DNA from: Brucella haematophila | GTDB taxonomy: Bacteria; Pseudomonadota; Alphaproteobacteria; Rhizobiales; Rhizobiaceae | Direction: 5' to 3' | Assembly: GCF_005938105.1 (NCBI RefSeq) | Contig: NZ_VCPE01000011.1 | Span: 124,001-188,000 of the forward strand | DNA length: 64,000 nt | Shown: in pieces, positions 1 to 22,536 of the stretch | Layout of the letters: each line of letters starts with the position of its first letter | Position numbering within the stretch: the stretch's first letter is position 1 | Program-made: the position numbers and the translations under genes | The notes under the pieces: generated by a model | Seen by the model: the letters and a program-made list of their open reading frames with translations, nothing else | What the model was told of the DNA's origin: nothing | The model's database searches: none

Positions 1-1
1 C

Positions 2-1210
2 TTTTGCGATCATGCGCTGATCGGCGAAATGCAAAATGCCGTGGCGCAGACCAATTTCGTCAAGACACTGGTGACCTGGGAGGACCATGCGGGCGGTGAG
101 CTTGGCGCATTGCTGGCCGATGCATCCGGCGATTTCGACCCAGTGGCAACGCGGGCGGATGACCCCTGCCTGCTCGGCTTCACATCCGGCACCACCGGCT
201 TGCCGAAAGCGACGATCCATTTCCACCGCGACCTGCTGATCGTCTGCGACTGCTATGCGCATCACATATTGGACGCGACGGAAGACGATATCTTCATCGG
301 CTCGCCGCCGCTGGCTTTCACATTCGGCCTTGGCGGACTGGTTCTCTTTCCTTTCAGGATCGGCGCTTCCACAGTGCTTCCGGCAAAGACCGCGCCCCAT
401 GATCTGGCGCTCGCCATCGGCGAATATAAGCCGACTGTCTGTTTCACCGCGCCGACGGCCTATCGCGCCATGCTTTCGAAAATTGATCAATATGATCTGT
501 CTTCACTGCGCAAATGCGTTTCAGCCGGTGAAGCTCTGCCGCTTCCCACTTTCGAAGCGTGGAAGCGCGCAACCGGGCTGTCGCTGGCAGATGGCATCGG
601 TGCAACGGAAATGCTGCATATCTTCATTTCCGCGCCGGAAAACGACATTCGTCCCGGCGCGACCGGCAAGCCAATCCCCGGTTATGAAGCACGCGTCATC
701 GATGACAATGGGCAGGAATGCGCGCCCGGCACCCCCGGACGCCTTGCGGTTCGCGGGCCGCTCGGCTGCAAATATCTGGCAGACCCGCGCCAGACCAAAT
801 ATGTCGAGAATGGCTGGAACATCACCGGCGATACCTATGTCATGGATGAGGACGGCTACTTCTGGTATCAGGCCCGCAATGACGACATGATCGTTTCCGC
901 CGGATACAATATTGCCGGGCCGGAGGTCGAGGCCAGCCTGCTCGCGCATCCGGCTGTAGCGGAATGCGGCGTGGTGGCAGCGCCGGATGAGGAACGGGGC
1001 TGCATCGTAAAAGCCTATGTGGTGCTGAACGAGGGCTATAATGGCGATGCGAATTTGCAGGAAACCCTGCAACGCCATGTCAAAAGCGAACTCGCACCCT
1101 ATAAATATCCACGCCTGATATGCTGGGTTTCCAGTCTGCCCAAGACAGAATCCGGAAAATTGCAGCGATCCGCCCTGCGCGCGCAGGCGGCAACCGAAGC
1201 CCGCGCCTGA
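2..1210 (+). CDS. 2-aminobenzoate-CoA ligase-like acyl-CoA synthetase (5' end outside window)
   Basis: This is the C-terminal three quarters (about 400 residues) of an ANL-superfamily acid-CoA ligase. The reading frame is open to the left edge, so the start lies upstream. It should activate an aromatic acid with ATP and CoA via an acyl-adenylate. The P-loop TSGTTGLPKA, the region GIGATEM, the hinge GDTYVMDEDGYFWYQAR with the DDMIVSAGYNI core, and the catalytic-lysine motif LPKTESGKLQR near the C-terminus are all visible. Resemblance is to benzoate/2-aminobenzoate-CoA ligases. The 2-aminobenzoyl-CoA monooxygenase/reductase at 13.2 kb makes anthranilate the likeliest substrate, but benzoate or salicylate cannot be excluded from sequence alone. 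The next gene lies close downstream on the same strand. Confidence 0.85.
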   Translation, partial: FCDHALIGEMQNAVAQTNFVKTLVTWEDHAGGELGALLADASGDFDPVATRADDPCLLGFTSGTTGLPKATIHFHRDLLIVCDCYAHHILDATEDDIFIGSPPLAFTFGLGGLVLFPFRIGASTVLPAKTAPHDLALAIGEYKPTVCFTAPTAYRAMLSKIDQYDLSSLRKCVSAGEALPLPTFEAWKRATGLSLADGIGATEMLHIFISAPENDIRPGATGKPIPGYEARVIDDNGQECAPGTPGRLAVRGPLGCKYLADPRQTKYVENGWNITGDTYVMDEDGYFWYQARNDDMIVSAGYNIAGPEVEASLLAHPAVAECGVVAAPDEERGCIVKAYVVLNEGYNGDANLQETLQRHVKSELAPYKYPRLICWVSSLPKTESGKLQRSALRAQAATEARA

Positions 1211-1245
1211 CGCGGCTTCACGCATGAAAAATGCAGGAGACTTCA

Positions 1246-2061
1246 GTGCTTCAAGACTTCGATACCGCCTATGACAATATGAAAGCCATCAGCGATTCCG
1301 CCACATATCCGCCGCGCTGGACGGAACTGGCCTCCGGCTTTCGCGCCAAAATGCGCGATCAGGGCCGCTTGATCCCTGACATCGCTTACGCCGAGGGTAC
1401 GCGCAACCATTACGACCTCTTCCTGCCGGAAGGCACGGCCAAGGGTACGCTCGTCTATGTCCATGGCGGCTATTGGAAGGGGCTGGACAAAAGCTTCTGG
1501 TCGCATCTGGCGCAGGGAGCGCTCACGCGCGGTTATCGCGTGGCCATGCCGAGCTATACGCTGTGCCCCGAAGCGCGGATTTCCGGCATCACGCTGGAAA
1601 TCGGTCGTTTCATCGACCGGCTGGCGCAGGAAGTGGACGGCGACATTGCGCTGACCGGCCATTCCGCAGGGGGGCATCTCGTCAGCCGCATGGCTTGCGA
1701 AAACGCACCCATTGCCGCCGCGACGGCGGAACGGATCAGCCATGTTCTTTCCATCAGCGGGTTGCATGATCTGCGCCCGCTGCTCAAAACCGCGATGAAC
1801 GACATTTTCCACATGGATGCGGAAGAAGCCGTCTCGGAAAGCGCCGCGCTACAGCGCCCGCGCGCGGATATTGCCGTGCATTGCTGTGTCGGCGGTGACG
1901 AACTGATGGAATTCCGGCGGCAAAATGCACTGCTGGCAAACATCTGGTACGGATTGGGGATCGAGACCAGCGCCTGGGAAATCGACGGAACGCATCATTG
2001 CGATGTGATCGACACGCTGTGCGATCCCGAAAGCCGCGCTGTTAAATTCCTCTGCCCGTAA
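1246..2061 (+). CDS. arylformamidase-like alpha/beta hydrolase
   Basis: An alpha/beta-hydrolase of about 271 residues resembling kynurenine formamidase (arylformamidase). The HGGYW motif forms the expected oxyanion loop, GHSAGGH carries the nucleophilic serine, and a C-terminal GTHHCDV contains the likely catalytic histidine. Family members remove formyl groups from N-formylkynurenine or similar anilides. Beside an anthranilate-CoA ligase it may release anthranilate from N-formylanthranilate (inference). The GTG at 1246 is preferred because AGGAGA at 1235-1240 is well spaced for it. The in-frame ATG at 1231 contains no ribosome-binding site upstream and would place the AGGAGA inside the gene. 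It is probably co-transcribed with the ligase, whose stop is 35 bases upstream. Confidence 0.78.
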   Translation: MLQDFDTAYDNMKAISDSATYPPRWTELASGFRAKMRDQGRLIPDIAYAEGTRNHYDLFLPEGTAKGTLVYVHGGYWKGLDKSFWSHLAQGALTRGYRVAMPSYTLCPEARISGITLEIGRFIDRLAQEVDGDIALTGHSAGGHLVSRMACENAPIAAATAERISHVLSISGLHDLRPLLKTAMNDIFHMDAEEAVSESAALQRPRADIAVHCCVGGDELMEFRRQNALLANIWYGLGIETSAWEIDGTHHCDVIDTLCDPESRAVKFLCP

Positions 2062-2074
2062 CACCGGGGAAGCG

Positions 2075-2105
2075 AAACGCTTTTCGCTTATGGCGGAAAG
2101 CGTTT
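2075..2105. terminator. candidate bidirectional terminator hairpin
   Basis: A 9-bp perfect inverted repeat, AAACGCTTT at 2075-2083 and AAAGCGTTT at 2097-2105, separates the convergent hydrolase and luxR genes. The right arm runs into GTTTTC. It abuts the luxR stop codon at 2106-2108. Confidence 0.45.
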
Positions 2106-2897: not shown

Positions 2898-2909
2898 TCT
2901 CTCTCCCGA

Positions 2910-2937: not shown

Positions 2938-2999
2938 GTTTGTTCCCGCTCTTGTTCGTATCATTCCCGCTTACAACGACTAAATCAAGGGGAACCGTT

Positions 3000-4247
3000 T
3001 TGGATACCAGCGTGCACCGGGCTCACACCGCCGACAACTATTCCGCAGTCATTCAGGGCTTCAACGACCGCCTGCAAGCCATTCTACCCCTGATTGAAGA
3101 AAAGGCCGAAGAAGCGGAACAACTCGGGCGGATGCATGATGACGTCGTGGACGCGATGCGCAAGGGCGGCTTCTACACGATGCTGTTTCCGAAGGAAGTC
3201 GGCGGCGCGGAACTGCGACCCGTCGATGCCATGAAAATCATGTCGGCTCTTTCCTATGCCCATGCCTCATCCGGCTGGTGCACGATGGTCAACAATATGG
3301 AAGGCACGACCATGGCGATCTACCTCGACGACGAGGGGATTGCCAATGTGTTCAAGGATGGTGTCGATATCACCATTGCAGGCAACGGCGTGCCGCGCGG
3401 CTTTGCCCGCAAGGTCGACGGCGGCTACATGATCCGCGGCAACTGGGCCTATGGAAGCTCCATTTTCCACGCGGAATGGATTCATTCCGGCTGCTTCCTG
3501 CTCGATCCCAAGGACCCGAACGGCAAAGCGCTGCTGAAAGACGAAACCGGCGCACCGCAGATCATCGTCGCGCATCACCCGCGCTCGACGATCCAGCTGC
3601 TCGGCAACTGGGATGTGCTGGGCCTGCGCGCCACCGGCAGCTTCGACTATACGCTTGCAACCGACGAAGACCTCTTCGTACCGGATTCCATGGTCTATAG
3701 TTTCACGCAATCCGCACCGAAACGCGGTCAGTCGCAGGGCCATCTCGGACTGGCAGGCTACAGCGCCCTCACCCATACGAGCTGGGCCATCGGCGTTGGT
3801 CGCCGGATACTCGATGAACTCGCCAAGGTGATCCGCCAGCGACAGGACCCATTCGGCAAGAGCGCAGATAGCGCCAGCCTGCGGTTCCAGTTTGCCAATG
3901 CCGAAGCCCGCTATCGGGCGGCGCGGGCGCTTGCCATGGAAACATGGGAAGATGTCTCGCAGACCACCGCATCTGGCGGTGTTCCAACCCTCGACCAGAT
4001 GACGATGGTGAAGCTCTCGCTGCGCTATATGCACGACATCGTTTCCGATGTGGCGACATTTGCGCATCGGGCGGCGCGCGGCGCATCGCTGCACAACACG
4101 GCCATGCAGCGCTTCTATCGCGACATTCATTCCGGCACCCAGCATATCCTGCTTGCCGACCAGATCGTCGAGGAATGCGGCAAGGGTTTGCTCGGCCTGT
4201 CCGGCCCCGGTGCACGATGGACCGTTTTCGGCATCAGCGAAAACTGA
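3000..4247 (+). CDS. acyl-CoA-dehydrogenase-fold flavin-dependent monooxygenase (candidate indole/aromatic oxygenase)
   Basis: A 415-residue protein of the acyl-CoA-dehydrogenase-like monooxygenase group (HpaB/DszC/IifC-type), which uses free reduced flavin supplied by a partner reductase. The N-terminal helical domain, the beta-domain (around GNGVPRGFARKVDGGYMIRG) and the four-helix C-terminal domain are recognisable. It lacks the usual acyl-CoA dehydrogenase catalytic-glutamate segment. A TTG at 3000 is taken as the start because AAGGGGA at 2987-2993 lies about 6 bases upstream. An in-frame ATG at 2940 overlaps the operator-like repeat and has no ribosome-binding site. The FMN reductase starts 8 bases after its stop. 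In known indole-oxidising clusters this pair oxidises the indole ring; that substrate is an inference here. Confidence 0.75.
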   Translation: MDTSVHRAHTADNYSAVIQGFNDRLQAILPLIEEKAEEAEQLGRMHDDVVDAMRKGGFYTMLFPKEVGGAELRPVDAMKIMSALSYAHASSGWCTMVNNMEGTTMAIYLDDEGIANVFKDGVDITIAGNGVPRGFARKVDGGYMIRGNWAYGSSIFHAEWIHSGCFLLDPKDPNGKALLKDETGAPQIIVAHHPRSTIQLLGNWDVLGLRATGSFDYTLATDEDLFVPDSMVYSFTQSAPKRGQSQGHLGLAGYSALTHTSWAIGVGRRILDELAKVIRQRQDPFGKSADSASLRFQFANAEARYRAARALAMETWEDVSQTTASGGVPTLDQMTMVKLSLRYMHDIVSDVATFAHRAARGASLHNTAMQRFYRDIHSGTQHILLADQIVEECGKGLLGLSGPGARWTVFGISEN

Positions 4248-4255
4248 GACCGGCC

Positions 4256-4834
4256 ATGACGAGAAATATTGTCAGCTTCGTCGGGTGTGATCGCCCGACG
4301 AAAGTTCACCGGCTAACCCAGGCGATTGCCGCAAGGCTGGAAGCGGAAGACGATGTGTCGGTCACGCATCTGGACCTGTCGCATGCTGGGCCGAACCTGT
4401 TTACCGTCAATCGCAAGGCGCTGGACCGGCAATCCGAAATCCTCATTTCGGAGATCGAGCATTGCGATGCCTTGATCGTCGGCTGCCCGGTCTATCAGGG
4501 AAGCTATCCCGGCCTTTTCAAGCATGTGTTCGATCTCGTGCATCCATTGGCGCTGCGCGGTCGCCCGACCGTGCTGTGCGCGGTGGGCGGCGGGCATCGT
4601 CACGCGCTGGTCGTCGAGCATCATCTGCGTCCGCTCTTCGGCTTTTTCGAAGCGGGAACCGTCGCAACCGGCATTTATGCCTGTTCGGCGGAACTGGAAC
4701 CGGACGGGCTGTTGCCTCCGGCCCTCGAAGCGCGGATCGACAGCGCCGTCGACCAGATGAGAAAACAATTGGTCCAGTCACACCAAGCCAGCGGCATAAG
4801 GTGGAAAGATGTTGAATTACTCGAGCAGTTTTGA
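4256..4834 (+). CDS. NAD(P)H-dependent FMN reductase (flavodoxin-like, SsuE/MsuE type)
   Basis: A 192-residue NADPH-dependent FMN reductase domain protein that would supply FMNH2 to the monooxygenase encoded just upstream. The GCPVYQGSYPGLFKHVFDL stretch (about residues 75-93) is the family's flavin-binding loop, and AVGGGHRHALVVEHHLRPLF follows (about residues 109-128). The ATG at 4256 lies 8 bases after the monooxygenase stop; the frame is open further upstream, but that part overlaps the monooxygenase gene. The 3' end overlaps the following hydrolase gene by 26 bases, suggesting translational coupling in one operon. Confidence 0.82.
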   Translation: MTRNIVSFVGCDRPTKVHRLTQAIAARLEAEDDVSVTHLDLSHAGPNLFTVNRKALDRQSEILISEIEHCDALIVGCPVYQGSYPGLFKHVFDLVHPLALRGRPTVLCAVGGGHRHALVVEHHLRPLFGFFEAGTVATGIYACSAELEPDGLLPPALEARIDSAVDQMRKQLVQSHQASGIRWKDVELLEQF

Positions 4835-7158: not shown

Positions 7159-7665
7159 ATGGAGGAACGCTTCTCAGGTACGGTTCTGGCTTCCGAGCAT
7201 CTGGAAGAGAATCCCGCGCGTTCGCTGGGCGAGATCGGCCTGAACAGTTTTGCGCCCTACCTGATGAACCGCCTGATGGCGCGCTATAATGCGAACCTCG
7301 CGGAAGGGCTGAAAGGCCGTCAGATCACAACGGTCAAGCTGCGCACGCTCGCCGTTTTGAGTGTCACGCCTTCGGCCACGATCAACGAGCTGGCGGTCTT
7401 TACCGTGACCGAACAATCGACGATGAGCCGCACGCTCGATTCGCTTGAAGAGCAGGGTTACATTCGCCGTCAGGCGCGCGCTGAAGACATGCGCATCCGC
7501 GATATTTCGATGACTGAAGAAGGGCGCAACATCTTCAACGAAGCATGGCCGACCATGTACGACCTGCTGTTGCAGTTGTTTGAGGGCATTGATGAGGACG
7601 AGCACCGCGCCTTTGTCGGCACCTTGCAGAAAATGCTGCGCAATATCCGTAAAAACGAACTTTGA
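7159..7665 (+). CDS. MarR-family transcriptional regulator
   Basis: A 168-residue winged-helix MarR regulator. The recognition helix lies within ATINELAVFTVTEQSTMSRT (about residues 73-92) and the wing within RRQARAEDMRIRDISMT. The gene is monocistronic, flanked by terminators on both sides, and lies between two catabolic operons. MarR proteins in such settings usually repress aromatic degradation genes and respond to a CoA thioester or phenolic ligand. This is one of two MarR genes in the island and could bind the palindromes described at 13140 or 21424. Confidence 0.85.
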   Translation: MEERFSGTVLASEHLEENPARSLGEIGLNSFAPYLMNRLMARYNANLAEGLKGRQITTVKLRTLAVLSVTPSATINELAVFTVTEQSTMSRTLDSLEEQGYIRRQARAEDMRIRDISMTEEGRNIFNEAWPTMYDLLLQLFEGIDEDEHRAFVGTLQKMLRNIRKNEL

Positions 7666-7724: not shown

Positions 7725-7871
7725 AGAGCATTTCCAGCAAAAGTGCGTAGCGCCTACGCGGGGAAATCAGTCCACTGGACTGATTTCTGATCCCGCTTCG
7801 ATGCGTAGGATAATGCGTAAAAACAAATAGATAGAGCGGTTCCACGATTCCGTTTTAACCGGAACCGCTCT
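7725..7871. repeat. RIME-like intergenic repeat, copy A (with three nested inverted repeats)
   Basis: The element starts with AGAGCATTTCCAGCAAAAGTG and contains GATAATGCGTAA, both shared with the inverted copy at 36839-36890. Nested palindromes include AAATCAGTCC/GGACTGATTT (7764-7773, 7777-7786) and the 11-bp arms AGAGCGGTTCC (7833-7843) and GGAACCGCTCT (7861-7871). The last arm supplies part of the stop codon of the neighbouring MFS gene (7870-7872). This is the style of short palindromic repeat found between genes in Rhizobiales. Confidence 0.65.
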
Positions 7872-9177
7872 AGTCCGTCGAGCGTGACGGGATCAGCGCG
7901 GTCGCCACGGCTGCCAGTGCAGCGACGATGGCAAAGATGTAAAAGTTCCATTGCGGGCCGACATTGAGGCTTGCGATCAAACCACCCAGAAGCGGACCCG
8001 ACAGCGCGCCAATGCGGGAGAAGCTCAGCGCCCATCCCGTTCCGGCAGAACGGATTGAGGAATCGAGCCGCTGCGCCAGAAAGCCTGTCAGCACCAGCGA
8101 CGCCGACACGGTGCCGAAACCGGCAATTGCGACGAACACATAGTTCATCAGCAGCGAGCCCTTGAAGGCAAGCGCCACGATGCCGAGAGCGCCCAGCGCA
8201 TAGGAACAGGCTACCGTGCGGCGCACGCCGAAGCGATCCGCCCATGTACCCAATACAATACCGCCGATTGCCGAGCTGAGGCTGAAAACGGCAAGGAACA
8301 ACAGGCTGTTGCCGAGATCGTAACCGTTCTTGCGCATGATCTGCGGCAGCCATTGCGCGAGACCATAGACCAGCAGCAGCCCCATGAAGAGCGCGATCCA
8401 GAAGCACGCGGTTTCGAATGCCTTTTTCGGCGAGAAGATTTCATTGAAAACGGTGCGCCAGCCGACCTTGCCATGCTTGCGGACAATCGCCGCCGGAACC
8501 CCGACGCCCATGCGCTGCGCCGTCTTGCGCGCCGCATCGTGCTTGCCGCGCTGGACCAGCGATTCCACGCTTTCCGGCAGAAATGCGAGGAAGATAGGCA
8601 CAAACAGCAGCGGCACCGCACCGATCAAAACGATGGTGCGCCAGCCATGGGCTTCAAGAAAGCCGCGACCGCAGAGGGCGGCGGCGAGCAATCCCATGGA
8701 ATAACCCGAATACATGAGTCCGTAATTGAAGCTCTTCTTCTTCACCGGGGAATATTCAACCGTCAGCGCTGCCGCGACTGGAATAATTCCACCGAGACCA
8801 ATGCCCGAAATGAATCGGCTCAATCCGAAGATGAAGGGTGTCGGTGCCATCGCGCTGACAATCATGCAAAGCGAAAACACGGTGATGCAGGCGACGAACA
8901 GCGGCTTGCGTCCATGAAGCTCGCTCAGCGTGCCTGCCAGAATACCGCCGATCAGCATGCCGATCACCGTATAGCTGCCGATGGCGCCAAGCTCTATCGG
9001 CGTCAGCTGCCAGACCGGATCGACGGACAAGGCGGGCAGAATGGCCCCGATGACGCCAACATCATAGCCTTCCGCGAAAATCGCAAGCCAGCACAGGCCA
9101 ACGACGAGCAAACTCTTGCCTGCCGATATTTCCTTTCCGGCAATAGCCGGCGCGTCTATGCTCCGGGCTTGAGACAT
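7870..9177 (-). CDS. MFS transporter, aromatic acid:H+ symporter (AAHS) type
   Basis: A 435-residue MFS protein with about twelve membrane segments. FAEGYDVGVIGAILPAL in helix 1 (the D lies in helix 1, as in PcaK/BenK/MhpT) and ELHGRKPLF in the loop between helices 2 and 3 are typical of aromatic-acid symporters. It starts 43 bases after iorB and probably ends the iorA-iorB-transporter operon, so uptake of an indole-related or aromatic 2-oxoacid is plausible. Its stop codon lies in the arm of the intergenic repeat at 7861-7871. Confidence 0.82.
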   Translation of the reverse strand: MSQARSIDAPAIAGKEISAGKSLLVVGLCWLAIFAEGYDVGVIGAILPALSVDPVWQLTPIELGAIGSYTVIGMLIGGILAGTLSELHGRKPLFVACITVFSLCMIVSAMAPTPFIFGLSRFISGIGLGGIIPVAAALTVEYSPVKKKSFNYGLMYSGYSMGLLAAALCGRGFLEAHGWRTIVLIGAVPLLFVPIFLAFLPESVESLVQRGKHDAARKTAQRMGVGVPAAIVRKHGKVGWRTVFNEIFSPKKAFETACFWIALFMGLLLVYGLAQWLPQIMRKNGYDLGNSLLFLAVFSLSSAIGGIVLGTWADRFGVRRTVACSYALGALGIVALAFKGSLLMNYVFVAIAGFGTVSASLVLTGFLAQRLDSSIRSAGTGWALSFSRIGALSGPLLGGLIASLNVGPQWNFYIFAIVAALAAVATALIPSRSTD

Positions 9178-13115: not shown

Positions 13116-13143
13116 TTGACGTGCTTGAGCACCCAATTATATT
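13116..13143 (+). promoter_or_regulatory. candidate sigma70-type promoter of the 2-aminobenzoyl-CoA operon
   Basis: TTGACG at 13116-13121 and TATATT at 13138-13143 are separated by 16 bases and point at the gene starting at 13216. The -10 element overlaps the palindrome at 13140-13157, so a bound repressor would block transcription. Confidence 0.5.
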
Positions 13144-13157
13144 TTAAGCTTAAAATA
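13140..13157. promoter_or_regulatory. 18-bp perfect palindrome, candidate MarR operator
   Basis: TATTTTAAGCTTAAAATA is a perfect palindrome covering the -10 region and probable start site of the downstream operon. A degenerate 16-bp version (13 of 16 positions equal) occurs at 21424-21439 in front of the MarR gene at 20.8 kb. That pattern fits a MarR repressor controlling both itself and this operon. Confidence 0.5.
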
Positions 13158-13215: not shown

Positions 13216-15540
13216 ATGCGTATCGTGTGTATTGGAGGAGGTCCGGCCGGCCTTTATTTCGGCCTTCTGATGAAGAAGCTTCATCCGGAACATGACATTA
13301 CGGTTGTGGAGCGGAACCGCCCCTATGACACCTTCGGCTGGGGTGTGGTGTTTTCCGACGCGACCATGGAATCCATGAAGGTCTGGGACCCGGAAAGTGC
13401 AGCCGAAATTCAGGACGCCTTCAATCACTGGGACGATATCGAGGTGCTGTTCAAGGGCACGCGCCAGCGCACCAGCGGTCATGGCTTTGTCGGCATCGGC
13501 CGCAAGCGCCTGCTCAACATTCTTCAGCTGCGCTGCGAAGCGCTGGGCGTGAAGCTTCAGTTTGAAACCGACGTGGAAAGCGATCTCGATTTCCCCGATG
13601 CCGATCTCATCATCGCTTCGGACGGCCTTAACTCCCGTATTCGCAATCGCTATGAGGACGTGTTCGAGCCCGATCTGATCGTGCGGCCCAATCGCTATAT
13701 CTGGCTTGGCACGGAAAAGCTGTTCGACGCCTTTACCTTCGATTTCCGCAAGACCGATCACGGCTGGTTCCAGGCGCATATCTACAAGTTCGACGACAAG
13801 ACCTCGACCTTCATCATAGAAACCACAGAGGAAGCCTATCTGGCGCACGGGCTGGACCAGATGGACCAGACTGCCTCCATCGATTTCTGCGAAAAGCTTT
13901 TTGCGGAGACGCTGGAAGGCGTACCGCTGATGACCAATGCGCGCCATATGCGCGGCTCGGCCTGGCTGAACTTCAACCGCCTGATTTGCGGAAAATGGAG
14001 CCACTTCAACGGCAATTCCCATGTCGTGTTGATGGGTGACGCAGCCCATACCGCGCATTTCGCCATCGGATCGGGCACCAAACTTGCCATCGACGACGCG
14101 ATTGAACTGGCCAACCAGTTCCAGAAGCTCGGTCACGGCAAGGAAGGCATTCCTGAAGTGCTGCATGCCTATGAGGAAATCCGCCGGGTCGATGTTGCAC
14201 GCATTCAGAACGCTGCGCGCAACGCCATGGAATGGTTCGAGGTCGTCGGCCAACGTTATGCCGACACGCTGGAGCCGGAACAGTTCATGTATTCCATGCT
14301 CACGCGTTCGCAGCGCATCAGCCACGAAAATCTGCGTCTGCGCGACAAGAACTGGCTCGAAGGCTATGAGCGCTGGTTTGCCCGCAAGCAGGGGCTGAAC
14401 GTAACGGAAGACGAGCGTTGCCTGCCGCCGATGTTCACGCCCTACACGCTGCGCGGTGTGACGCTGCCAAACCGCATCGTCGTGTCGCCGATGGCAATGT
14501 ATTCCGCGAGCGATGGCCTTATCGACGATTTCCATATGGTGCATCTGGGCAGCCGCGCCATGGGCGGCGCGGGACTGGTCTTTGCCGAAATGACCTGTGT
14601 GTCACCCGATGCGCGGATCACCCCCGGCTGTCTCGGCATCTGGAACGATGCACAGGCCGAAGGCTGGAAGCGCGTTGTCGATTTCGTGCACGGCAACAGC
14701 AATGCCAAGGTTGCCATGCAGATCGGCCATGCCGGACGTAAAGGCGCGACCAAGCTTGCATGGGAAGGCATTGACCAGCCGCTGGACGACGGCGCGTGGC
14801 CGCTGCTGTCCGCCTCCGCCCTCCCCTACCTCAAGCACAGCCAGACGCCGAAGGCGATGGACCGCGCCGATATGGATCGGGTGAAAGCGGATTTCGTCGC
14901 CGCCACCAAACGCGCGGCTGAAGCTGGCGTCGATTGGCTCGAACTGCACTGTGCCCATGGCTATCTTCTGTCGAGCTTCCTGTCGCCGCTCACCAACCGG
15001 CGCGAGGACGAATATGGCGGCAGCTATGAAAACCGCGCACGTTATCCGCTGGAAGTCTTCCACGCGGTTCGCGAAGTCTGGCCGCAGGATAAGCCGATCT
15101 CGGTTCGTCTTTCGTGCCACGACTGGTTTGAAGGCGGCAACACGCCGGAAGATGCAGCCATCTTTGCCGAGATGTTCAAGGCCGCAGGCGCCGATCTGAT
15201 CGACTGTTCGTCGGGTCAGGTCTGGAAGGAAGAAAAGCCGGTTTATGGCCGTCTGTTCCAGACCCCGTTCTCCGACAAGATCCGCAACGAAATCCACATT
15301 CCGACGATCGCCGTCGGTGCGATTTCGGAAGCCGATCATGCGAATTCGATCATCGCCGCCGGGCGCGCCGATCTCTGCGCTGTGGCACGCCCGCATCTTG
15401 CCGATCCGGCATGGGCGCTGCACGAGGCGGCGAAAATCGGCATCAACTCTATCGCGTGGCCGAAGCAATATCGCTCCAGCAAGTATCAGTATGAAGCCAA
15501 TCTCGCCCGCGCCGCTGCTGCACCGCAAGGCGCGAAATAG
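13216..15540 (+). CDS. 2-aminobenzoyl-CoA monooxygenase/reductase-type fusion enzyme
   Basis: A 774-residue fusion. Residues 1-400 are a class A FAD monooxygenase ([15 protein letters not shown] at residues 7-21; second FAD motif [16 protein letters not shown] near 274). Residues 405-774 are an Old Yellow Enzyme domain ([20 protein letters not shown]; ring motif [19 protein letters not shown] near 577). This architecture is that of 2-aminobenzoyl-CoA monooxygenase/reductase and of proteins annotated as bifunctional salicylyl-CoA 5-hydroxylase. The first activity hydroxylates the ring at C5 with NADH and O2; the second reduces and dearomatises it. The ATG at 13216 follows GGAAAGGGA. It is first in a tightly packed operon ending at 20818. 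Confidence 0.88.
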
Positions 15541-15561: not shown

Positions 15562-16368
15562 ATGGCGATGAACGATCCGGCTGTTGGCCTTGCCCTTTCT
15601 GGCAAACATGCGCTGGTTACCGGTGCCGGTAGCGGTATCGGCGCCGCTATCGCGGTGGGCCTTGCGCGCGCCGGGGCCAATGTGACCCTGGCGGGCCGCC
15701 GCCGCGAACCGCTGGAAGCAACTGCCGCCCTGTTGGACTGGCAGCGATGCTTCATTGCCGATGGTTTCGATGTGACAAACCGCGAAGCCATTGAGACCGG
15801 GTTGAACGGCGCGCGCGCCGCATTCGGGCCTGTCAGCATTCTTGTTAATAATGCCGGGGAAGCACCGAGCGCCCCTTTCGAGAAAACCAGTCTCGATATG
15901 TGGAGCCGCGTTCTCGACGTCGATCTCACCGGCGTCTTCAATGTGACGCAGGCGACCCTTGATGACATCAAGGCGGGCGGCAAAGGCGGGCGCATCATCA
16001 ATATCGCGTCGACGGCGGGCCTGAGCGGTTATTCTTATGTCTCGGCCTATTGCGCTGCAAAGCACGGGGTCGTCGGGTTGACCAGAGCGCTGGCGTTGGA
16101 ATTGGCCCGCAAGGGCGTAACCGTCAATGCCGTTTGCCCGGGCTTTACCGATACGCCGATCATTGCTCGTTCGATCCAGGCCATTGTCGCGAAGACCGGA
16201 CGGTCGGAGGACGATGTTCTGGCAGAATTCGTCAAGGCGAACCCGCAGGGACGCCTGATACAGCCTGAGGAAGTGGCTGAAACCGTGCTGTGGCTCACAT
16301 CGCCCGGCGCGCAATCGATAACTGGACAGGCGATAGCAATCGCCGGTGGGGAGGTAATGGCAGGATGA
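15562..16368 (+). CDS. short-chain dehydrogenase/reductase (hydroxyacyl-CoA dehydrogenase-like)
   Basis: A 268-residue classical SDR with the NAD(P)-binding motif TGAGSGIG (about residues 20-27), NNAG, and a YCAAK active site near residue 163. A serine about 14 residues earlier (INIASTAG) completes the catalytic set. It resembles 3-hydroxyacyl-CoA and 2-hydroxycyclohexanecarboxyl-CoA dehydrogenases. In this operon it would oxidise or reduce a hydroxy/oxo group on the alicyclic CoA ester made by the enzyme upstream. A second ATG two codons in is equally possible. The stop codon overlaps the start of the next gene (ATGA). Confidence 0.82.
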
Positions 16369-17216
16369 ACGACGGCACAATTTCGATGGCGAGCAATCTG
16401 AAGCCTTTCAAGGATTATCAGGCCGAGCATTTTCTGTGGCAGACCAGCGAAGATGGGCGCGTTGCAACGCTGACCCTGAACCGCCCGGACCGCAAAAATC
16501 CGCTGACATTCGAAAGCTATGCCGAGCTTCGCGACCTGTTTCGCAATCTCGTCTATGCCTCCGACGTGCGCACCATCGTGCTGACCGGCGCTGGCGGAAA
16601 CTTCTCGTCGGGCGGCGATGTGTTCGAGATCATCGAACCGCTGACCAAAATGGCGATGCCCGACCTTCTGGCTTTCACGCGCATGACTGGCGATGTCGTC
16701 AAGGCCATGCGCAAATGCCCGCAGCAGATCATTGCCGCCGTTGACGGCATTTGCGCTGGTGCTGGCGCTATTCTGGCCATGGCATCGGATTTGCGCATCG
16801 CAACACCGGAAGCCAAGACAGCCTTCCTCTTCACCCGCGTCGGTCTCGCGGGCGCAGATATGGGTGCCTGCGGCATTCTCCCGCGACTGATCGGTCAGGG
16901 CCGCGCATCGGAACTGCTTTATACCGGACGCTTCATGAGCGCCGACGAAGGCGAGCGCTGGGGCTTCTTCAATGCGCTGCATCCGCAGGGCGACCTCATC
17001 GGCAAGGCCGAAGCGCTGGCGCGCAACATCGCCGATGGCCCATGGTTCGCGCATGGCATGACCAAAACCATGCTCAATCAGGAATGGGCAATGGGCATTG
17101 AAGAGCTGGTGGAATCGGAAGCGCAAGCGCAGGCCATTTGCATGGCAACGCAGGATTTCCGTCGCGCCTTTGAGGCTTTCGCAGCCAAGCAGAAGCCCGT
17201 TTTCGAGGGGAACTGA
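16365..17216 (+). CDS. enoyl-CoA hydratase/isomerase family protein
   Basis: A 283-residue crotonase-fold protein. The oxyanion-hole segments [15 protein letters not shown] and [19 protein letters not shown] are clear. It may hydrate a ring double bond or hydrolytically open the alicyclic oxo-acyl-CoA ring; the crotonase superfamily includes both types. The ATG at 16365 overlaps the SDR stop in an ATGA arrangement, which favours translational coupling over starts further upstream in the same frame. Confidence 0.85.
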
Positions 17217-17218: not shown

Positions 17219-18394
17219 ATGGATAGTTCCGCAGCAAAACCGCTCGTGCGGGAGCATCTCGACTGGCCGTTTTTTGACAAAACCCATACCGACTGGGCCG
17301 CAAAGCTCGATGCCTTTGCAGCGAGCCCGGCGCTGGCCGATGTCGATCACAGCGATACCGACAATGCCTGCCGCGCTTTGGTGAAAGCGCTGGGCCAAGC
17401 CGGGCTGCTGGAAGCGGCTGTCAGCCTGACCGGCGGCGAAGGCATCGATTCCCGCAAGCTTTGCATTGCCCGCGAGACACTGGCCTATCATGACGGTCTC
17501 GCCGATTTCGCTTTTGCCATGCAGGGCCTCGGCACCGGCGCGATCAGCCTGACCGCGTCGGACGAACTCAAGCAGGCCGTGTTGCCGAAAGTGGCAATCG
17601 GCGAATGGATTTCGGCTTTTGCGCTTTCGGAAAAACTGGCGGGGTCCGATGTGGCGGCGATGAGCTGTGCCGCCAGAGCCGACGGCGATGACTATGTGCT
17701 CGACGGTGAAAAGACCTGGATTTCCAATGGCGGCATCGCCGATGTCTACACCGTCTTTGCCCGCACGGGCGAAGCGCCCGGAACACGGGGCATTTCGGCC
17801 TTTGTGGTTTTCGCCACCGATCCCGGCTTTTCCATCGCGGAGCGCATCGATGTGATCGCGCCGCATCCGCTGGCCACGATCCGCTTCGACAATTGCCGCA
17901 TCCCCGCCTCGCGTCGCCTCGGCGCGCCGGGCGAAGGCTTCAAGATCGCCATGCGCACGCTCGATATTTTCCGCGCATCGGTTGCCGCAGCAGCACTTGG
18001 CTTTGCGCGCCGTGCAGCCAGCGAGGCGCTGTCCCATGCACGGTCGCGCCCGATGTTCGGTGGCGCATTGGCCGACTTGCAGCTGACGCAGGCCACGCTT
18101 GGAGACATGGCGACCGATATCGACGCCGCTGCGCTTCTGACTTATCGCGCAGCATGGCGGCGCGACGTTCAGAAGCTGAACACAACCAAGGAAGCCGCAA
18201 TGGCCAAGATGGTTGCGACGGAAAACGCCCAGCAAACCATCGACAAGGCCGTGCAAATGTTTGGCGGTCGCGGTGTGAAAAGCGGCGAAATCGTCGAGCG
18301 GCTTTATCGCGAGATCCGCGCACTTCGCATCTATGAGGGCGCAACCGAAGTGCAGAAACTCATTATCGCGCGCGAACTACTGAAGGCAAATTAA
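17219..18394 (+). CDS. acyl-CoA dehydrogenase
   Basis: A 391-residue acyl-CoA dehydrogenase. The FAD-binding middle region ([37 protein letters not shown]) and the C-terminal helical domain ending in [17 protein letters not shown] are typical. It would introduce an alpha,beta double bond in the CoA ester during breakdown of the dearomatised ring, passing electrons to ETF. It starts two bases after the hydratase stop. Confidence 0.88.
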
Positions 18395-18429: not shown

Positions 18430-18825
18430 ATGCATAAGACCCTTCAGCCGCAAGGCTGGGCCCGCCCCATCGGATATGCCAACGGCGTTGAAGCCCGCGG
18501 GCGCACCGTCTACATCGGCGGCCAGATCGGCTGGAACGAACAGCAACAGTTCGAGACCGACGATTTCGTCGAGCAGACCGAGCAGACATTGAAGAACATT
18601 GTCGCCATTCTGGCGGAAGCCGGCGGCAAGCCGGAGCATATCGCTTCCATGACCTGGTATTTCACCGACAAGGTTGAATATACCGCCAATCTGAAAGGCA
18701 TCGGTCGCGCCTATCGCGATGTGATCGGCAAGCACTTCCCCGCAATGGCGGCGGTGCAGGTTGTTGCGCTGGTCGAAGACCGGGCCAAGATTGAAATACA
18801 GGCTTTTGCCGTTATACCGGACTGA
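18430..18825 (+). CDS. RidA/YjgF-family protein lacking the catalytic arginine
   Basis: A 131-residue Rid-family protein. RidA enzymes hydrolyse reactive enamine/imine intermediates and form trimers with the active site between subunits. The C-terminal family block is present (FPAMAAVQVVALVEDRAKIEIQAF in part), but the arginine that normally follows the proline, and binds the substrate carboxylate, is replaced by methionine or alanine. That places it among the Rid subgroups whose activity is unknown. The operon makes an amino-substituted cyclohexene-CoA, so a role in handling an enamine-CoA or its deamination is an attractive inference. Confidence 0.82.
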   Translation: MHKTLQPQGWARPIGYANGVEARGRTVYIGGQIGWNEQQQFETDDFVEQTEQTLKNIVAILAEAGGKPEHIASMTWYFTDKVEYTANLKGIGRAYRDVIGKHFPAMAAVQVVALVEDRAKIEIQAFAVIPD

Positions 18826-18832: not shown

Positions 18833-20818
18833 ATGGCCGATAGACGCGAATTCTCCCCCGCTGTGACAGGCACAGTTGTTGACGGCATTCTTGTCGTCAC
18901 GGTCGACAACCCGCCGGTCAACGCCACATCCGCTGATGTGCGCAAAGGTTTTGCCGCAGCCATTCGCCATGCTTCTGCCGACGCGGCGATCCGTGCGACC
19001 GTGCTGAGCGGTGCAGGCAAAATCTTCATCGGCGGGGCAGACATTCGCGAATTTGGCAAGCCTCCGGTCGAACCGACATTGCCGGATGTTATCACGATCA
19101 TCGAAAGCGCCGACAAACCCGTGGTGGCCGCTATCAACGGCCCCGCTTTGGGCGGCGGGCTTGAGGTTGCGCTTGCGACTCACGCCCGTATCGCATCAAC
19201 CAGCGCCTCCTTTGCCTTGCCGGAAGTCAAGCTCGGGATCGTGCCCGGCGCTGGCGGCACGCAGCGCCTGCCTCGACTGATCGGGCCGCTCGCAGCACTC
19301 GATATGATCGCCACCGGACGCCAGATTGCCCCGGATGAAGCGCTACAATTGGGCCTCATCGACCAGATATCGGATGGCGATCTTGTGGCCGACGCTATCG
19401 CGCTCGCCAATACGCTGGTCGGCAAGCCATTGTGCCGGACCGGCGATCTGCCCGTTACCGCGCCCGATGCAGCCGCCTTTGAACAGGCCAAGGCCAAAAT
19501 ACTGAAAAAGGCGCGCGGCGCGACCGCTCCCGGAGAAGCGGCGCGGCTGGTCCAACTCTCGACGACAACCGCGATTGCCGAAGGTCTGGCCGAAGAACGG
19601 ACAACCTTCATTCGCCTGCGCGATAGCACGGAAGCAGCCGCCTTGCGGCATCTGTTTTTCGCCGAACGTGCCGCTGGAAAAGTGGAAGGCATTGAGGCGA
19701 AGCCTCGGGCGCTTTCCACCATCGGCATTGCCGGGACCGGCCTGATGGGATCGGGCATCGCCGTTGCCTGTCTCGCCGCTGGCTATAAGGTCATCGGCTA
19801 TGAAACGACTGCGGAAGCAGCCGCCAAGGGCCATGCGCGGATCAGCGACATGATCCAGAAGGCTGTCGATACGGGCAGGCTTTCCACCGAAGCCGCAGAC
19901 GCGCAACGTGCAAAGCTCACTGTCAGCGCCGATATGGCTGCACTGGCCGATGCCGATCTCGTCATCGAGGCCGTGTTCGATGATTTCACCGTCAAGGCGT
20001 CGCTGTTCCGCGCGCTTGATGCGTTGCTGCCTGCGGCAACCATTCTCGCGACCAATACAAGCTATCTCAACCCGGATGAGCTGGCCGCCGTGACAAGCCG
20101 TGCCGACCGGGTGCTGGGCCTGCACTTCTTCTCGCCAGCCAATATCATGCGGCTTCTGGAAGTGGTGCGCTGCGCGCAGACCTCCGACGAGACGCTGGCA
20201 ACCGGCATCGCCTTCGCCCGTAAGATCAAGAAGCTGCCCATCGTTACCGGTGTCTGCGAAGGCTTTATCGGCAACCGGATGTTTTCGGCCTATCGCGCGC
20301 AAGCCGAGGAAATACTGGCCGAAGGCGCTTATCCCGAAGATATCGACCGCGCCATGGAAGCCTATGGCTTTCCGATGGGACTCTTCGCGGTTTACGACAT
20401 GGCCGGGCTGGAAATTGCCTGGGCGCGGCGCAAGAGAGCGGCGGCAAGCCGCGATCCCAACCTGCCCTATTTCGATGTTGCCGACAAATTATGCGAAGCC
20501 GGTCGTTTCGGGCGCAAGACCGGTCTCGGCTGGTATCGCTATGCGGACGGTGTTCGCGCCAGCGACCCGGACGTTCACGCGCTGATCGACGATTACCGCG
20601 CACGCAACGCCATTGTTCCTCGCAGTTTCAACGACGAAGCAATCATGCAGCGCCTGCTCGCTGCCATGGCGGATGAAGGAAAAGCGCTGCTTGAAGAAGG
20701 CATCGCGCGCCATTCCGACGACATTGATCTCGTTCTGGTCAACGGCTACGGCTTTCCCTCGATCAAGGGCGGCCCGATGTTTGCAACAATGTCCGGGACG
20801 GGCGATCAGGCGAACTGA
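18833..20818 (+). CDS. FadB-type fusion: enoyl-CoA hydratase / 3-hydroxyacyl-CoA dehydrogenase
   Basis: A 661-residue two-domain beta-oxidation enzyme. Residues 1-190 form a crotonase domain (GAGKIFIGGADIREFG; PALGGGLEVALATHARIAS). A NAD-binding domain begins with GIAGTGLMGSGIAVACLAAG near residue 300, followed by LGLHFFSPANIMRLLEVV and GFIGNRMFSAYR. It would carry out hydration and dehydrogenation after ring opening. The ATG at 18833 lies 7 bases after the Rid-family stop; upstream in-frame starts overlap that gene. It ends the operon, convergent with marR. Confidence 0.87.
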   Translation: MADRREFSPAVTGTVVDGILVVTVDNPPVNATSADVRKGFAAAIRHASADAAIRATVLSGAGKIFIGGADIREFGKPPVEPTLPDVITIIESADKPVVAAINGPALGGGLEVALATHARIASTSASFALPEVKLGIVPGAGGTQRLPRLIGPLAALDMIATGRQIAPDEALQLGLIDQISDGDLVADAIALANTLVGKPLCRTGDLPVTAPDAAAFEQAKAKILKKARGATAPGEAARLVQLSTTTAIAEGLAEERTTFIRLRDSTEAAALRHLFFAERAAGKVEGIEAKPRALSTIGIAGTGLMGSGIAVACLAAGYKVIGYETTAEAAAKGHARISDMIQKAVDTGRLSTEAADAQRAKLTVSADMAALADADLVIEAVFDDFTVKASLFRALDALLPAATILATNTSYLNPDELAAVTSRADRVLGLHFFSPANIMRLLEVVRCAQTSDETLATGIAFARKIKKLPIVTGVCEGFIGNRMFSAYRAQAEEILAEGAYPEDIDRAMEAYGFPMGLFAVYDMAGLEIAWARRKRAAASRDPNLPYFDVADKLCEAGRFGRKTGLGWYRYADGVRASDPDVHALIDDYRARNAIVPRSFNDEAIMQRLLAAMADEGKALLEEGIARHSDDIDLVLVNGYGFPSIKGGPMFATMSGTGDQAN

Positions 20819-20840: not shown

Positions 20841-21338
20841 TTACTCGTCTTCCGCTCCGGAAAGATGGTTTCGTACCGACTTCTTCAGCGGATCGAGGTC
20901 GGCCAGCAATATCTGGATGACATCGTGATCGACGTCGGCCATCATTTCCCGCAACCAGCCTTCATGGGCGCTGGCCATCTGGCTGAAAACCGAAATGCCC
21001 TGATCCGTCAGGCGAGCAACCGTGACGCGACGATCGGCACCCGGCGTTTCGCGCTTGACCAGACCTTCGGTCTCCAGCCGCTCCACCAGCCCGGTCACAT
21101 TGCCATTGGTCACCATCGTGCGGCGTGACAGTTCACCCAGCCGCAAGCCGTCCGGCTCGCGATAGAGCTGCGCCAGCAAATCGAATTGTGGGAGTGTTGC
21201 GCCGAATTCGTTGCGCAGACGCCGCCTGATTTCCTGTGAGATCAGCTTGGTCGTGGACAACATGCGCAGCCAAAGGCGCAATTCCGGCTTTTCGCTTTCA
21301 TGATCCTCGCTGACTATGATCTCGAAATCCACCGACAC
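20841..21338 (-). CDS. MarR-family transcriptional regulator
   Basis: A 165-residue MarR protein with a winged helix spanning about residues 50-115 (LAQLYREPDGLRLGELSRRT; then NGNVTGLVERLETEGLVKRE). Its N-terminus (VSEDHESEKPELRLWLRMLSTT in part) resembles regulators of aryl-CoA pathways. It is convergent with the beta-oxidation operon and is preceded by an operator-like palindrome related to the one in front of that operon. It is therefore the best candidate for the pathway repressor, possibly released by 2-aminobenzoyl-CoA. Confidence 0.86.
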   Translation of the reverse strand: MSVDFEIIVSEDHESEKPELRLWLRMLSTTKLISQEIRRRLRNEFGATLPQFDLLAQLYREPDGLRLGELSRRTMVTNGNVTGLVERLETEGLVKRETPGADRRVTVARLTDQGISVFSQMASAHEGWLREMMADVDHDVIQILLADLDPLKKSVRNHLSGAEDE

Positions 21339-21401
21339 GCCAATTTCCTTTGTTCAACCGCACGCTGGTCAGGCTCAGGAATCGAGCCACACCGTGCTTT
21401 A

Positions 21402-21430
21402 AGATTCGCGTTTGCCGAAAAATATTTCAA
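21402..21430 (-). promoter_or_regulatory. candidate marR promoter
   Basis: Read on the minus strand, TTGAAA (21430-21425) and GAATCT (21407-21402) are 17 bases apart and point at the marR start at 21338. The -35 element lies inside the palindrome at 21424-21439, consistent with autorepression. Confidence 0.35.
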
Positions 21431-21439
21431 GCCTTAAAT
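21424..21439. promoter_or_regulatory. degenerate copy of the MarR-type palindrome
   Basis: ATTTCAAGCCTTAAAT matches 13 of 16 positions of ATTTTAAGCTTAAAAT at 13141-13156, and both are followed by an AATT(A/G)ACC stretch. It overlaps the predicted marR -35 element. Confidence 0.45.
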
Positions 21440-21747
21440 AATTGACCTGACAGCCGATGTGAGGACGGCAAAACGCCCTTCATCAGCGCGAAATGCAGCG
21501 CAAGCGGCATTTTATTTCTAAATGCATATATTTCTAATTCCAAGCGCGATTTCTGCATTCAAGAAAATGTCCGAACAAGCAAGATTTCAGGCTTGATAAG
21601 CCTGTATGGAAAGTCGTTTCGGACCGCTTAATTACTTGCAAAGTCATATGATATTGCATAGCTTTCCTCTCAAGGCTCACAGAAGCCATTACACAAATCC
21701 GCAGTTCCGCCCACACTGGGTTGAGCGCGGTAAAGACGAGGGAAACT

Positions 21748-22536
21748 ATGAAAGAGACATCCGTTCTCACCGGTCTCGCATCCGCATTGGTGTCGCAATC
21801 GATCAAGGTCGTGGATATTACCGCGCCGCTCGGACCCGACACGCCGGTGCTTTATCTTCCGCCGCAATTCGGCAAGAACACCCCGAATGTGAAGATCCAC
21901 GAGATCAGCAAATATAATCAGGACGGTCCGTTCTGGGCCTGGAACTGGATCGAGCTGGGCGAACACACGGGAACCCATTTCGACGCGCCGAGCCATTGGG
22001 TCACGGGCAAGGACCATTCCAACAACACGACGGACACCATCCCGCCGCAGAATTTCGTTGCGCCGGTCAATGTGATCGACCGCTCTTCGGAAGCAGCCGC
22101 CAACCCGGATTATCTCCTCACGGTGGAAAGCATCCAGCAATGGGAAGCGGAGCATGGCGAGATTGAAGCCGGCTCATGGGTGATCCTGCGCACCGACTGG
22201 TACAAGCGCAATGGCTCGACCGAGACATTCCTGAATGCCGACGAGAATGGTCCGCATTCGCCCGGACCGACGGCGGAAGCAATCCGCTATCTTCTGTCCA
22301 AGGGGATCATCGGCTGGGGTCAGGAAACCATCGGCACCGATGCCGGTTCGGCTGGCGGCATGACCCCGCCCTTCCCGGCACACCATCTGCTGCATGAAGC
22401 CAATCGCTACGGCCTCGCAAGCCTCAGCAATCTCGACCAGCTTCCAGCAAAAGGCGCGATCCTGATCGCCGCACCGTTGAAATTCGTCGCTGGTACGGGA
22501 TCGCCAGTGCGGGCGCTGGCGCTGGTTCAGGGCTAA
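21748..22536 (+). CDS. cyclase-family metal-dependent hydrolase, isatin hydrolase-like
   Basis: A 262-residue member of the cyclase/kynurenine-formamidase (PF04199-type) family. The metal-binding signature EHTGTHFDAPSHW (about residues 72-84; His73, His77, Asp79, His83) is complete. The aromatic-rich stretch PFWAWNWIELG before it is typical of the isatin-hydrolase branch, which opens isatin to isatinate using Mn2+. N-formylkynurenine or another cyclic amide remains possible. The ATG at 21748 is used because GAGGG lies just upstream; an in-frame TTG at 21721 has no such site. It is a single gene divergent from marR. Confidence 0.75.
   Translation: MKETSVLTGLASALVSQSIKVVDITAPLGPDTPVLYLPPQFGKNTPNVKIHEISKYNQDGPFWAWNWIELGEHTGTHFDAPSHWVTGKDHSNNTTDTIPPQNFVAPVNVIDRSSEAAANPDYLLTVESIQQWEAEHGEIEAGSWVILRTDWYKRNGSTETFLNADENGPHSPGPTAEAIRYLLSKGIIGWGQETIGTDAGSAGGMTPPFPAHHLLHEANRYGLASLSNLDQLPAKGAILIAAPLKFVAGTGSPVRALALVQG

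Follow-up and report, generated by a model that had tools for sequence, protein, structure and literature searches.

Gene context and phylogeny suggest a CoA-acylating isatinate oxidoreductase encoded by iorAB in a Brucella haematophila catabolic island

We have analysed a stretch of 64,000 nt of the Brucella haematophila genome (contig C3:124001-188000 of a 5.5 Mb genome, NZ_VCPE01000011.1; referred to here as the window), in which two genes for a 2-oxoacid oxidoreductase, iorA and iorB, share a catabolic island with a gene for isatin hydrolase and an operon for a 2-aminobenzoyl-CoA monooxygenase/reductase-type enzyme (ACMR). From the association of these genes and the phylogeny of IorA we think it quite likely that IorAB would function in the lower half of an isatin pathway as an isatinate:acceptor oxidoreductase (CoA-acylating), and likely that a widespread subclade of enzymes now labelled 'indolepyruvate oxidoreductase', including the IadAB proteins of auxin-degradation (iad) loci, shares this activity. 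In the proposed pathway isatin hydrolase would open isatin to isatinate (2-aminophenylglyoxylate), which IorAB would decarboxylate on thiamine diphosphate, handing two electrons via its iron-sulphur clusters to an acceptor and releasing 2-aminobenzoyl-CoA. ACMR would then dearomatize this thioester with O2 and NADH, RidA and beta-oxidation-like enzymes would break down the ring, and the neighbouring CoA ligase would salvage free anthranilate, with MarR-type operators coupling isatin hydrolase to the iorA and ACMR promoters.

The open-licence literature that we searched assigns no enzyme to the conversion of isatinate to activated anthranilate, and subscription papers could hold such an assignment; a 2025 preprint, in the part accessible, leaves the steps from the IadI product to anthranilate unassigned. 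If the proposal is correct, the activity is new relative to that literature and fills the isatinate step of indole and auxin breakdown. Anthraniloyl-CoA rather than anthranilate would be the main product, with aerobic ring cleavage reached without ligase ATP; the catabolism of indole, isatin and auxin (indole-3-acetic acid, IAA) would be joined to aryl-CoA pathways, and many genes labelled indolepyruvate oxidoreductase would need new annotation.

Organization of the island

Gene calls in the window were checked against Pfam, NCBIfam and the PDB. The features on which the argument turns are as follows.

1..1210, + strand: aryl-CoA ligase cut at its 5' end by the edge of the window, probably a 2-aminobenzoate-CoA ligase.
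7159..7665, + strand: MarR1 regulator; most relatives encode a homologous MarR protein next to iorA (PDB 3cjn, 132 bits).
9221..10771, - strand: IorB, with a gamma (POR) domain and a helical DUF6537 part (NCBIfam PRK08312, 722 bits).
10782..12935, - strand: IorA, subunit of a thiamine-diphosphate 2-oxoacid oxidoreductase, carrying two cysteine clusters at its C terminus (TPP_enzyme_C; IOR_alpha, 269 bits).
13143..13154, no strand: palindromic TTTAAGCTTAAA in the iorA-ACMR intergenic region, a probable MarR-type operator.
13216..15540, + strand: ACMR, 2-aminobenzoyl-CoA monooxygenase/reductase-type fusion (PRK08255, 1374 bits, above the cut-off of 1078).
15562..16368, + strand: SDR dehydrogenase encoded with ACMR (92% in the corresponding operon of Ochrobactrum sp. 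CGA5).
16368..17216, + strand: enoyl-CoA hydratase of the same operon; its start codon is uncertain (family match).
17219..18394, + strand: acyl-CoA dehydrogenase of the ACMR operon (family match).
18430..18825, + strand: RidA-family enamine/imine deaminase (PF01042, 78 bits).
18833..20818, + strand: bifunctional enoyl-CoA hydratase/3-hydroxyacyl-CoA dehydrogenase (family matches).
20841..21338, - strand: MarR2 regulator (homologues in or beside the ACMR operons of genome G202 and Ochrobactrum sp. CGA5).
21426..21438, no strand: operator-like TTCAAGCCTTAAA in the spacer between marR2 and the isatin hydrolase gene (palindrome comparison).
21748..22536, + strand: isatin hydrolase, IH-B type (PDB 4j0n, 411 bits; HTGTHFD, WAW and GLAS motifs).

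The family and PDB scores confirm the gene types named in the initial annotation (isatin hydrolase, IorA/IorB and the ACMR operon), and iorA is indeed divergent from the 2-aminobenzoyl-CoA operon, with 280 bp separating it from the ACMR gene.

At the sequence level the identification of isatin hydrolase is very secure. The protein matches isatin hydrolase B (4j0n) over 258 residues and 5nna with 308 bits. Enzymes of this type are diagnosed by His-His-Asp manganese ligands, a WxW/FxW pocket and a GLQC/GLAS motif, according to the accessible part of PMC6117287; HTGTHFD, WAW and YGLAS are all present in the alignment of the window protein. It shares its metal ligands and its aromatic and GLAS motifs with isatin hydrolase B of Labrenzia aggregata, from which it does not differ in the motifs tested. 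The GLAS/GLQC pattern is a narrow one, with no match in 38 of 101 rows, and a Tsukamurella homologue that adjoins IorA has WQH in place of the aromatic motif. Conversely, the aromatic motif is intact and IorA absent from the same region on Azospirillum plasmid unnamed2, in Labrenzia THAF187b and in Deinococcus; the Azospirillum strain carries IorA on another of its plasmids.

IorA and IorB are, by domain content, the subunits of a 2-oxoacid oxidoreductase. The thiamine-diphosphate domain, the POR/gamma domain and the Fe-S cysteine clusters that characterize the 2-oxoacid:acceptor oxidoreductase superfamily are all present, IorA having a GDG motif at residue 483 and cysteine motifs from residues 622 and 658. 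The thiamine-diphosphate and POR domains and the C-terminal cysteine clusters are common to the indolepyruvate:ferredoxin oxidoreductase of archaeal peptide fermentation (IorAB), but the window IorA scores 269 bits against TIGR03336, the equivalog model for that enzyme, far under its curated cut-off of 651, and the window IorB has the additional DUF6537. Phenylglyoxylate:NAD+ oxidoreductase, PadEFGHI, has several subunits, among them an NAD+-linked flavoprotein subunit. The window enzyme, in contrast, has two, and family searches of the window recognized no such flavoprotein subunit beside iorAB, no genome-wide search having been made; the PadEFGHI sequence itself was not part of the comparison. 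The chemistry that we propose would nevertheless be the same, acting on an aryl-glyoxylate, as in the enzyme titled phenylglyoxylate:NAD+ oxidoreductase (CoA benzoylating) and named PadEFGHI in the accessible part of PMC5109826.

A search of the PDB at E 1e-5 gave no sequence relative of IorA, a profile search reaching E 5e-4 or worse at best, and the 50 fold matches listed are single-chain thiamine-diphosphate enzymes with TM-scores of 0.19-0.28. The IorB profile had no PDB match at 0.01; its gamma domain matches in fold the CoA-bound PFOR 6ciq and also oxalate oxidoreductase. The C-terminal DUF6537 part of IorB (residues 241-516; window 9224-10054) models as helical, and the fold matches listed for it are mostly designed repeat proteins.

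Linkage of iorAB with isatin hydrolase

Neighbourhoods were counted within 10 kb of the isatin hydrolase gene in 80 named loci, which are the best 80 relatives of the window's isatin hydrolase out of at least 588 candidates and thus near relatives. IorA is encoded in 72 of them (57 of the 60 loci longer than 20 kb), MarR1 in 73, ACMR in 23, and IorA jointly with ACMR in 22. The IorA proteins of Rhizobium tropici and Mesorhizobium loti share 87% and 69% identity, respectively, with that of the window. In a collection of 72,556 plasmid records, whose counts include many near-identical Sulfitobacter plasmids, IorA occurs in 50, isatin hydrolase in 57 and both in 40; the gap between the two genes is 5 kb or less on 33 of the 40, and falls to 10-16 bp on four Novosphingobium plasmids.

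Nine of 289 genomes sampled from the class have a hydrolase homologue, the window's own genome included; in the three others that are most similar (57-63% identity) IorA lies within about 2.1 kb and the [WF]xW motif is kept, whereas in five with 47-51% identity this isatin pocket motif is missing and IorA is found only on another contig. Among 398 genomes sampled from the phylum, 25 have isatin hydrolase, 22 have IorA at 64% identity or more and 21 have both. Co-occurrence spans 12 genera and seven families, with 19 pairs on the same contig and 16 within 10 kb (Fisher P=6e-30, uncorrected for kinship), and isatin hydrolase is present in none of the five genomes of this sample that have only a distant IorA (57% identity or less). 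Within the window's own family, 11 other genomes of this sample have both genes and five have neither. The pairing is also seen on an actinobacterial plasmid.

A tree of 45 IorA sequences, obtained from 111 rows thinned at 80% identity, divides in the same manner. When 'linked' denotes an isatin hydrolase gene no more than about 25 kb away on that locus or plasmid, one split with an SH-aLRT support of 100 separates 25 linked and five unlinked sequences from 15 sequences of which none is linked. As a separate observation, one protein accession is annotated twice as iorA on a Delftia plasmid (L159 10422-22950), near an IS1071 transposase.

Isatinate or indolepyruvate

The family names and models suggest another function, in which IorAB would be a true indolepyruvate (arylpyruvate) oxidoreductase that converts indolepyruvate derived from tryptophan to indoleacetyl-CoA, its link with isatin hydrolase arising through tryptophan or auxin breakdown. 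It could also draw on the iad-like loci, which have IorAB, as iadAB, beside the auxin oxygenase. We regard this as unlikely: an auxin Rieske oxygenase lies within 10 kb in none of the 80 named loci, 72 of which have IorA; the distant IorA proteins are unlinked to isatin hydrolase; and genome G001 has an IorA-isatin hydrolase pair together with a StyA-like indole monooxygenase and an SDR protein, with no auxin Rieske match. Since the pair is kept in 72 of the 80 loci and in G001 without an auxin Rieske oxygenase, isatin rather than auxin is the common denominator. Aminotransferases do appear in annotated IorA regions of Ruegeria and Caballeronia, as noted in the course of reading these regions and not by a systematic search.

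The arrangement on two Deinococcus plasmids argues in the same direction. A single-chain thiamine-diphosphate enzyme is encoded directly 3' of isatin hydrolase on both (L152 15007-17857; L184 9971-12390), and neither plasmid has a match to IorA, the search being of the plasmids and not of the chromosomes. The D. psychrotolerans plasmid operon encodes ACMR, an SDR protein, MarR, hydratase, acyl-CoA dehydrogenase, ligase, isatin hydrolase and the thiamine-diphosphate enzyme. The Deinococcus thiamine-diphosphate enzyme has its best score, 225 bits, with the model of a sulfoacetaldehyde acetyltransferase subfamily and reaches 140 bits with benzoylformate decarboxylase, both below any cut-off; it may be an isatinate decarboxylase. 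Isatin hydrolase is followed in both designs by an enzyme that uses thiamine diphosphate, and this makes isatinate the likely common substrate.

Comparison with the iad loci is informative in its own right. The IorAB genes are already a published marker of these loci, with no reaction given in the accessible part of PMC9613470, and the statement of the initial annotation that the gene types of the island are rarely discussed together needs to be qualified to that extent. IadA and IadB of Variovorax, Achromobacter and Bradyrhizobium are homologues of IorA and IorB, and the iad pathway, which includes an IadI annotated as kynurenine formamidase, is reported to run via isatin and isatinic acid to anthranilic acid as the end product; the accessible parts of both papers assign no reaction to IadAB (PMC9613470; PMC12633357). 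The window differs in having no auxin oxygenase genes, and the combination of Rieske IadDE, ligase and thiolase that defines an iad locus is not found in it. No Rieske oxygenase was recognized among the 20 window proteins scanned, and the best Rieske match in the window's genome has 27% identity over residues 18-221 of 437. A run of iad-like genes is seen in genome G636 in the order IorA-IorB-reductase-Rieske-ligase-thiolase-SDR-cyclase-SDR, where the cyclase is an isatin hydrolase homologue. In the accessible part of PMC12633357, which assigns genes of iadC-K2, C8H7NO3 and C7H7NO accumulate strongly only on overexpression of the whole of this nine-gene region; we read these, by formula, as isatinate and 2-aminobenzaldehyde, and their build-up would be expected if an enzyme that consumes isatinate were lacking.

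Gene neighbours and the proposed CoA product

The case for a CoA thioester as the product of IorAB is read from its neighbours. A CoA-thioester product would predict either a CoA-dependent monooxygenase or a thioesterase beside iorAB, and both are encountered. ACMR of the window has PF01494 and PF00724 domains and scores above the PRK08255 cut-off, as expected of an FAD monooxygenase fused to an OYE-type reductase. The name of this family model carries salicylyl-CoA; the RidA and beta-oxidation genes favour an amino substrate. RidA, which had escaped the initial annotation and recurs within or next to other ACMR operons, accords with a ring that carries an amino group. The 2-aminobenzoyl-CoA operon of anthranilate degraders is known to comprise the fusion enzyme, a hydratase, dehydrogenases and a ligase. 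The window shares all of these, but has in addition RidA and a divergent iorA on a common promoter region.

Related arrangements are found elsewhere. Azospirillum thermophilum encodes IorA-IorB-reductase-Rieske alpha-beta-ligase-SDR-ACMR-SDR-hydratase-acyl-CoA dehydrogenase on one strand, adjoined by a divergent MarR gene; in genome G202 Rieske genes, isatin hydrolase, IorA and IorB are followed by the ACMR operon; in genome G633 IorA-IorB-cyclase adjoins ACMR, RidA, acyl-CoA dehydrogenase and hydratase; and in R. tropici PTD1 (L068) the order is isatin hydrolase, MarR1, MFS, IorB, IorA, ligase, ACMR. A thioesterase is encoded directly 3' of IorB in Ruegeria, Caballeronia, Shinella, Sulfitobacter THAF37, Sagittula, B. 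multivorans, G560 and G581, and those scanned (Shinella and Caballeronia) belong to 4HBT_2. In Caballeronia and G560 the IorA-IorB-thioesterase genes are followed by an aryl-CoA 5-hydroxylase homologue, a gentisate-dioxygenase-like cupin, an FAH hydrolase, and nitrilase-like and Asp/Glu-racemase-family enzymes, a set that could specify a 5-hydroxyanthranilate route to fumarate. The loci with IorAB-thioesterase, cupin, FAH hydrolase, nitrilase-like and Asp/Glu-racemase-like genes are L145 12001-22700, L217, L147 and L155.

These neighbours also bear on whether IorAB might act on isatinate without CoA, giving 2-aminobenzaldehyde or free anthranilate for subsequent activation by the ligase. Oxalate oxidoreductase is a member of the superfamily that works without CoA, and its gamma domain is among the fold matches of IorB; there is a ligase in the window, and C7H7NO, read as 2-aminobenzaldehyde, is reported for Variovorax in the part of the source available. 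The gamma domain, however, also matches the CoA-bound PFOR 6ciq, ACMR accompanies IorA in 22 of the 80 loci and a thioesterase follows IorB in others, and a ligase stands in the D. psychrotolerans operon, where the single-chain enzyme in place of IorAB would give no CoA ester. A CoA-independent reaction therefore seems very doubtful, and CoA acylation by IorAB remains the reading to which the gene context points. The view that this is an ordinary anthranilate (N-heterocycle) catabolic island, with isatin hydrolase and IorAB as incidental neighbours, accommodates the ligase, the ACMR operon and the alpha/beta hydrolase remotely akin to kynurenine formamidase as serving anthranilate from other heterocycles, but is scarcely tenable given that the pairing recurs in 12 genera and seven families and on an actinobacterial plasmid.

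Two further sets of relatives deserve mention. In Ochrobactrum sp. CGA5 (L067 203-9001) the ACMR operon proteins are 92-98% identical to those of the window, against 87% for isatin hydrolase, a contrast that suggests recent transfer or separate histories of the two parts. In Variovorax boronicumulans (L154 13998-24574) genes for an alpha-hydroxyacid dehydrogenase and an enolase-superfamily protein adjoin those for an IorAB of the other group. The scores of the dehydrogenase are 302 bits with mandelate dehydrogenase (6bfg) but 317 bits with a lactate oxidase entry, and the enolase-superfamily protein falls below the cut-off of every model; there is only a hint here of an arylglycolate (mandelate-like) pathway ending in aryl-CoA.

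Evidence against the assignment

A number of observations weigh against IorAB as the isatinate oxidoreductase. IorA is not found within 10 kb in three of the 60 loci longer than 20 kb (L067, L124 and L139), and ACMR is not seen within this distance in 50 of the 72 loci that have IorA. Four of the 25 isatin hydrolase genomes of the phylum sample (G589, G492, G504 and G584) have no IorA at the 64% cut, and one of these, G589, encodes isatin hydrolase, a ligase and an ACMR operon; the 20 kb read there contains no IorAB and no match to the Deinococcus thiamine-diphosphate enzyme. The five unlinked genomes of the class sample are all drafts, and in two of them the homologue is on a contig shorter than 14 kb; five of the 30 sequences on the linked side of the tree have no isatin hydrolase nearby; and the Fisher and hypergeometric figures ignore kinship beyond the counts of genera and families. 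The predicted structure of IorA is poor (mean pLDDT 64), and only eight alignment columns distinguish the two IorA groups, so that the substrate could not be named by sequence alone. In Variovorax, iadC-K2, which by its gene list does not include iadAB, restored anthranilic acid (PMC12633357, in the part accessible); there must therefore be another route from isatinate to anthranilate in that organism, and IadAB is not absolutely needed.

The CoA ligase is a further such point. Its open frame runs on upstream of the window, where the adjoining piece is AMP-binding; the cut piece within the window scores 332 bits to benz_CoA_lig against a cut-off of 375, and is 60% identical over 349 aa to the Deinococcus ligase encoded between the ACMR operon and isatin hydrolase. 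Since a ligase is encoded beside it, IorAB does not simply take the place of one. For the core proposal of the initial annotation, in which IorAB would oxidize isatinate and supply 2-aminobenzoyl-CoA, there is strong support from gene association, phylogeny and the Deinococcus substitution.

Regulation

TTTAAGCTTAAA is a perfect palindrome between iorA and the ACMR gene, and TTCAAGCCTTAAA precedes isatin hydrolase. The consensus was taken from the window, and the window's own scores are thus post hoc; in a null resampled from both window spacers, 28 of 1000 sequences reached 11 and none reached 12. In relatives, 18 of 21 regions upstream of ACMR score at least 11 of 12, 13 of them at 12; these regions are mostly from Mesorhizobium and thus not independent, and two of the 23 ACMR loci were left out because the gene is too near the locus edge. 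Only three of 18 marR2 upstream regions reach 11. An ungapped 16-mer likeness of the two spacers was not significant, being equalled in 28 of 60 shuffles, and it is on the palindrome test across relatives, not on the 16-mer comparison, that the operator claim depends. The motif that the initial annotation saw as shared by the iorA and isatin hydrolase upstream regions is thus real, its conservation being demonstrated for the ACMR side only. We infer that the MarR proteins bind both operators. MarR1 has its best PDB match in 3cjn, followed by 7kym with 96 bits, one of the structures of auxin-locus MarR proteins. An interrupted palindrome of 25 bp, GAAATCAGTCCACTGGACTGATTTC, was also noted at 7763-7787, between marR1 and the MFS gene.

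Entry into isatin and other features of the window

Four further genes belong to this part of the window.

1231..2061, + strand: alpha/beta hydrolase with remote kinship to kynurenine formamidase (PDB 2pbl, 241 bits; kynurenine formamidase 4e11, 68 bits).
2940..4247, + strand: flavin monooxygenase of acyl-CoA-dehydrogenase fold (family and PDB matches).
4256..4834, + strand: NAD(P)H:FMN reductase that probably serves the monooxygenase (FMN_red; 174 bits with the MsuE family, cut-off 212).
7870..9177, - strand: MFS transporter between marR1 and iorB (same position in R. tropici PTD1, L068, with 70.5% identity).

A homologue of the MFS transporter occurs in four of the 80 isatin hydrolase loci. 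The monooxygenase had been described as IifC-like and as opening a complete route from indole, and neither description is borne out. IifC is StyA-like, and a query with a StyA-like indole monooxygenase had no match in the window's genome. The window monooxygenase has the acyl-CoA-dehydrogenase fold, with best matches to Rv3094c in the PDB (122 bits) and to the HsaA family (119 bits, cut-off 450); the IifC sequence itself was not compared. Indole oxygenases of that fold (IacA and others) are classed apart from IifC/IndA in the accessible part of PMC6221969. Moreover, the monooxygenase (at 120 bits or more), the FMN reductase and the hydrolase at 4809-5594 are found in none of the 80 isatin hydrolase neighbourhoods at the score limits used, which places the monooxygenase outside the conserved module.

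The isatin-forming half of the pathway is probably encoded elsewhere in the genome. Many relatives have flavoproteins of about 520 residues and a Dpp-type ABC transporter beside isatin hydrolase; the five scanned, from three loci, belong to PF01593, and one scores to the CrtO/CrtI families. The window's genome has, at C23:147022-150545 (L163), a divergent pair of flavin amine-oxidase/CrtO-like oxidoreductases of about 525 aa by a Dpp-type ABC transporter, which share 72% and 37% identity with a single query from R. tubonense, and these are likely the best candidates for the isatin-forming enzymes.

The genes at 2106-5594, for a LuxR-type regulator, the monooxygenase, the FMN reductase and an alpha/beta hydrolase, have the appearance of a separate catabolic unit. 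A role for 29-5594 in 4-quinolone and N-formylanthranilate breakdown, with an HOD-like dioxygenase and a formylanthranilate amidase, was considered and rejected, as the 60 PDB matches listed, of 108, for the hydrolase at 4809 included no HOD or QDO structure, and none of the 80 relatives has the three enzymes encoded at 2940-5594 (monooxygenase, reductase, hydrolase). Beyond isatin hydrolase, 22538-23524 encodes a GntR-family regulator, a single protein with two GntR helix-turn-helix stretches; next come a gene of the malate/lactate dehydrogenase type and one for an MFS transporter. For the rhamnose genes that lie further on in the window, most matches are on Rhizobium and Sinorhizobium plasmids.

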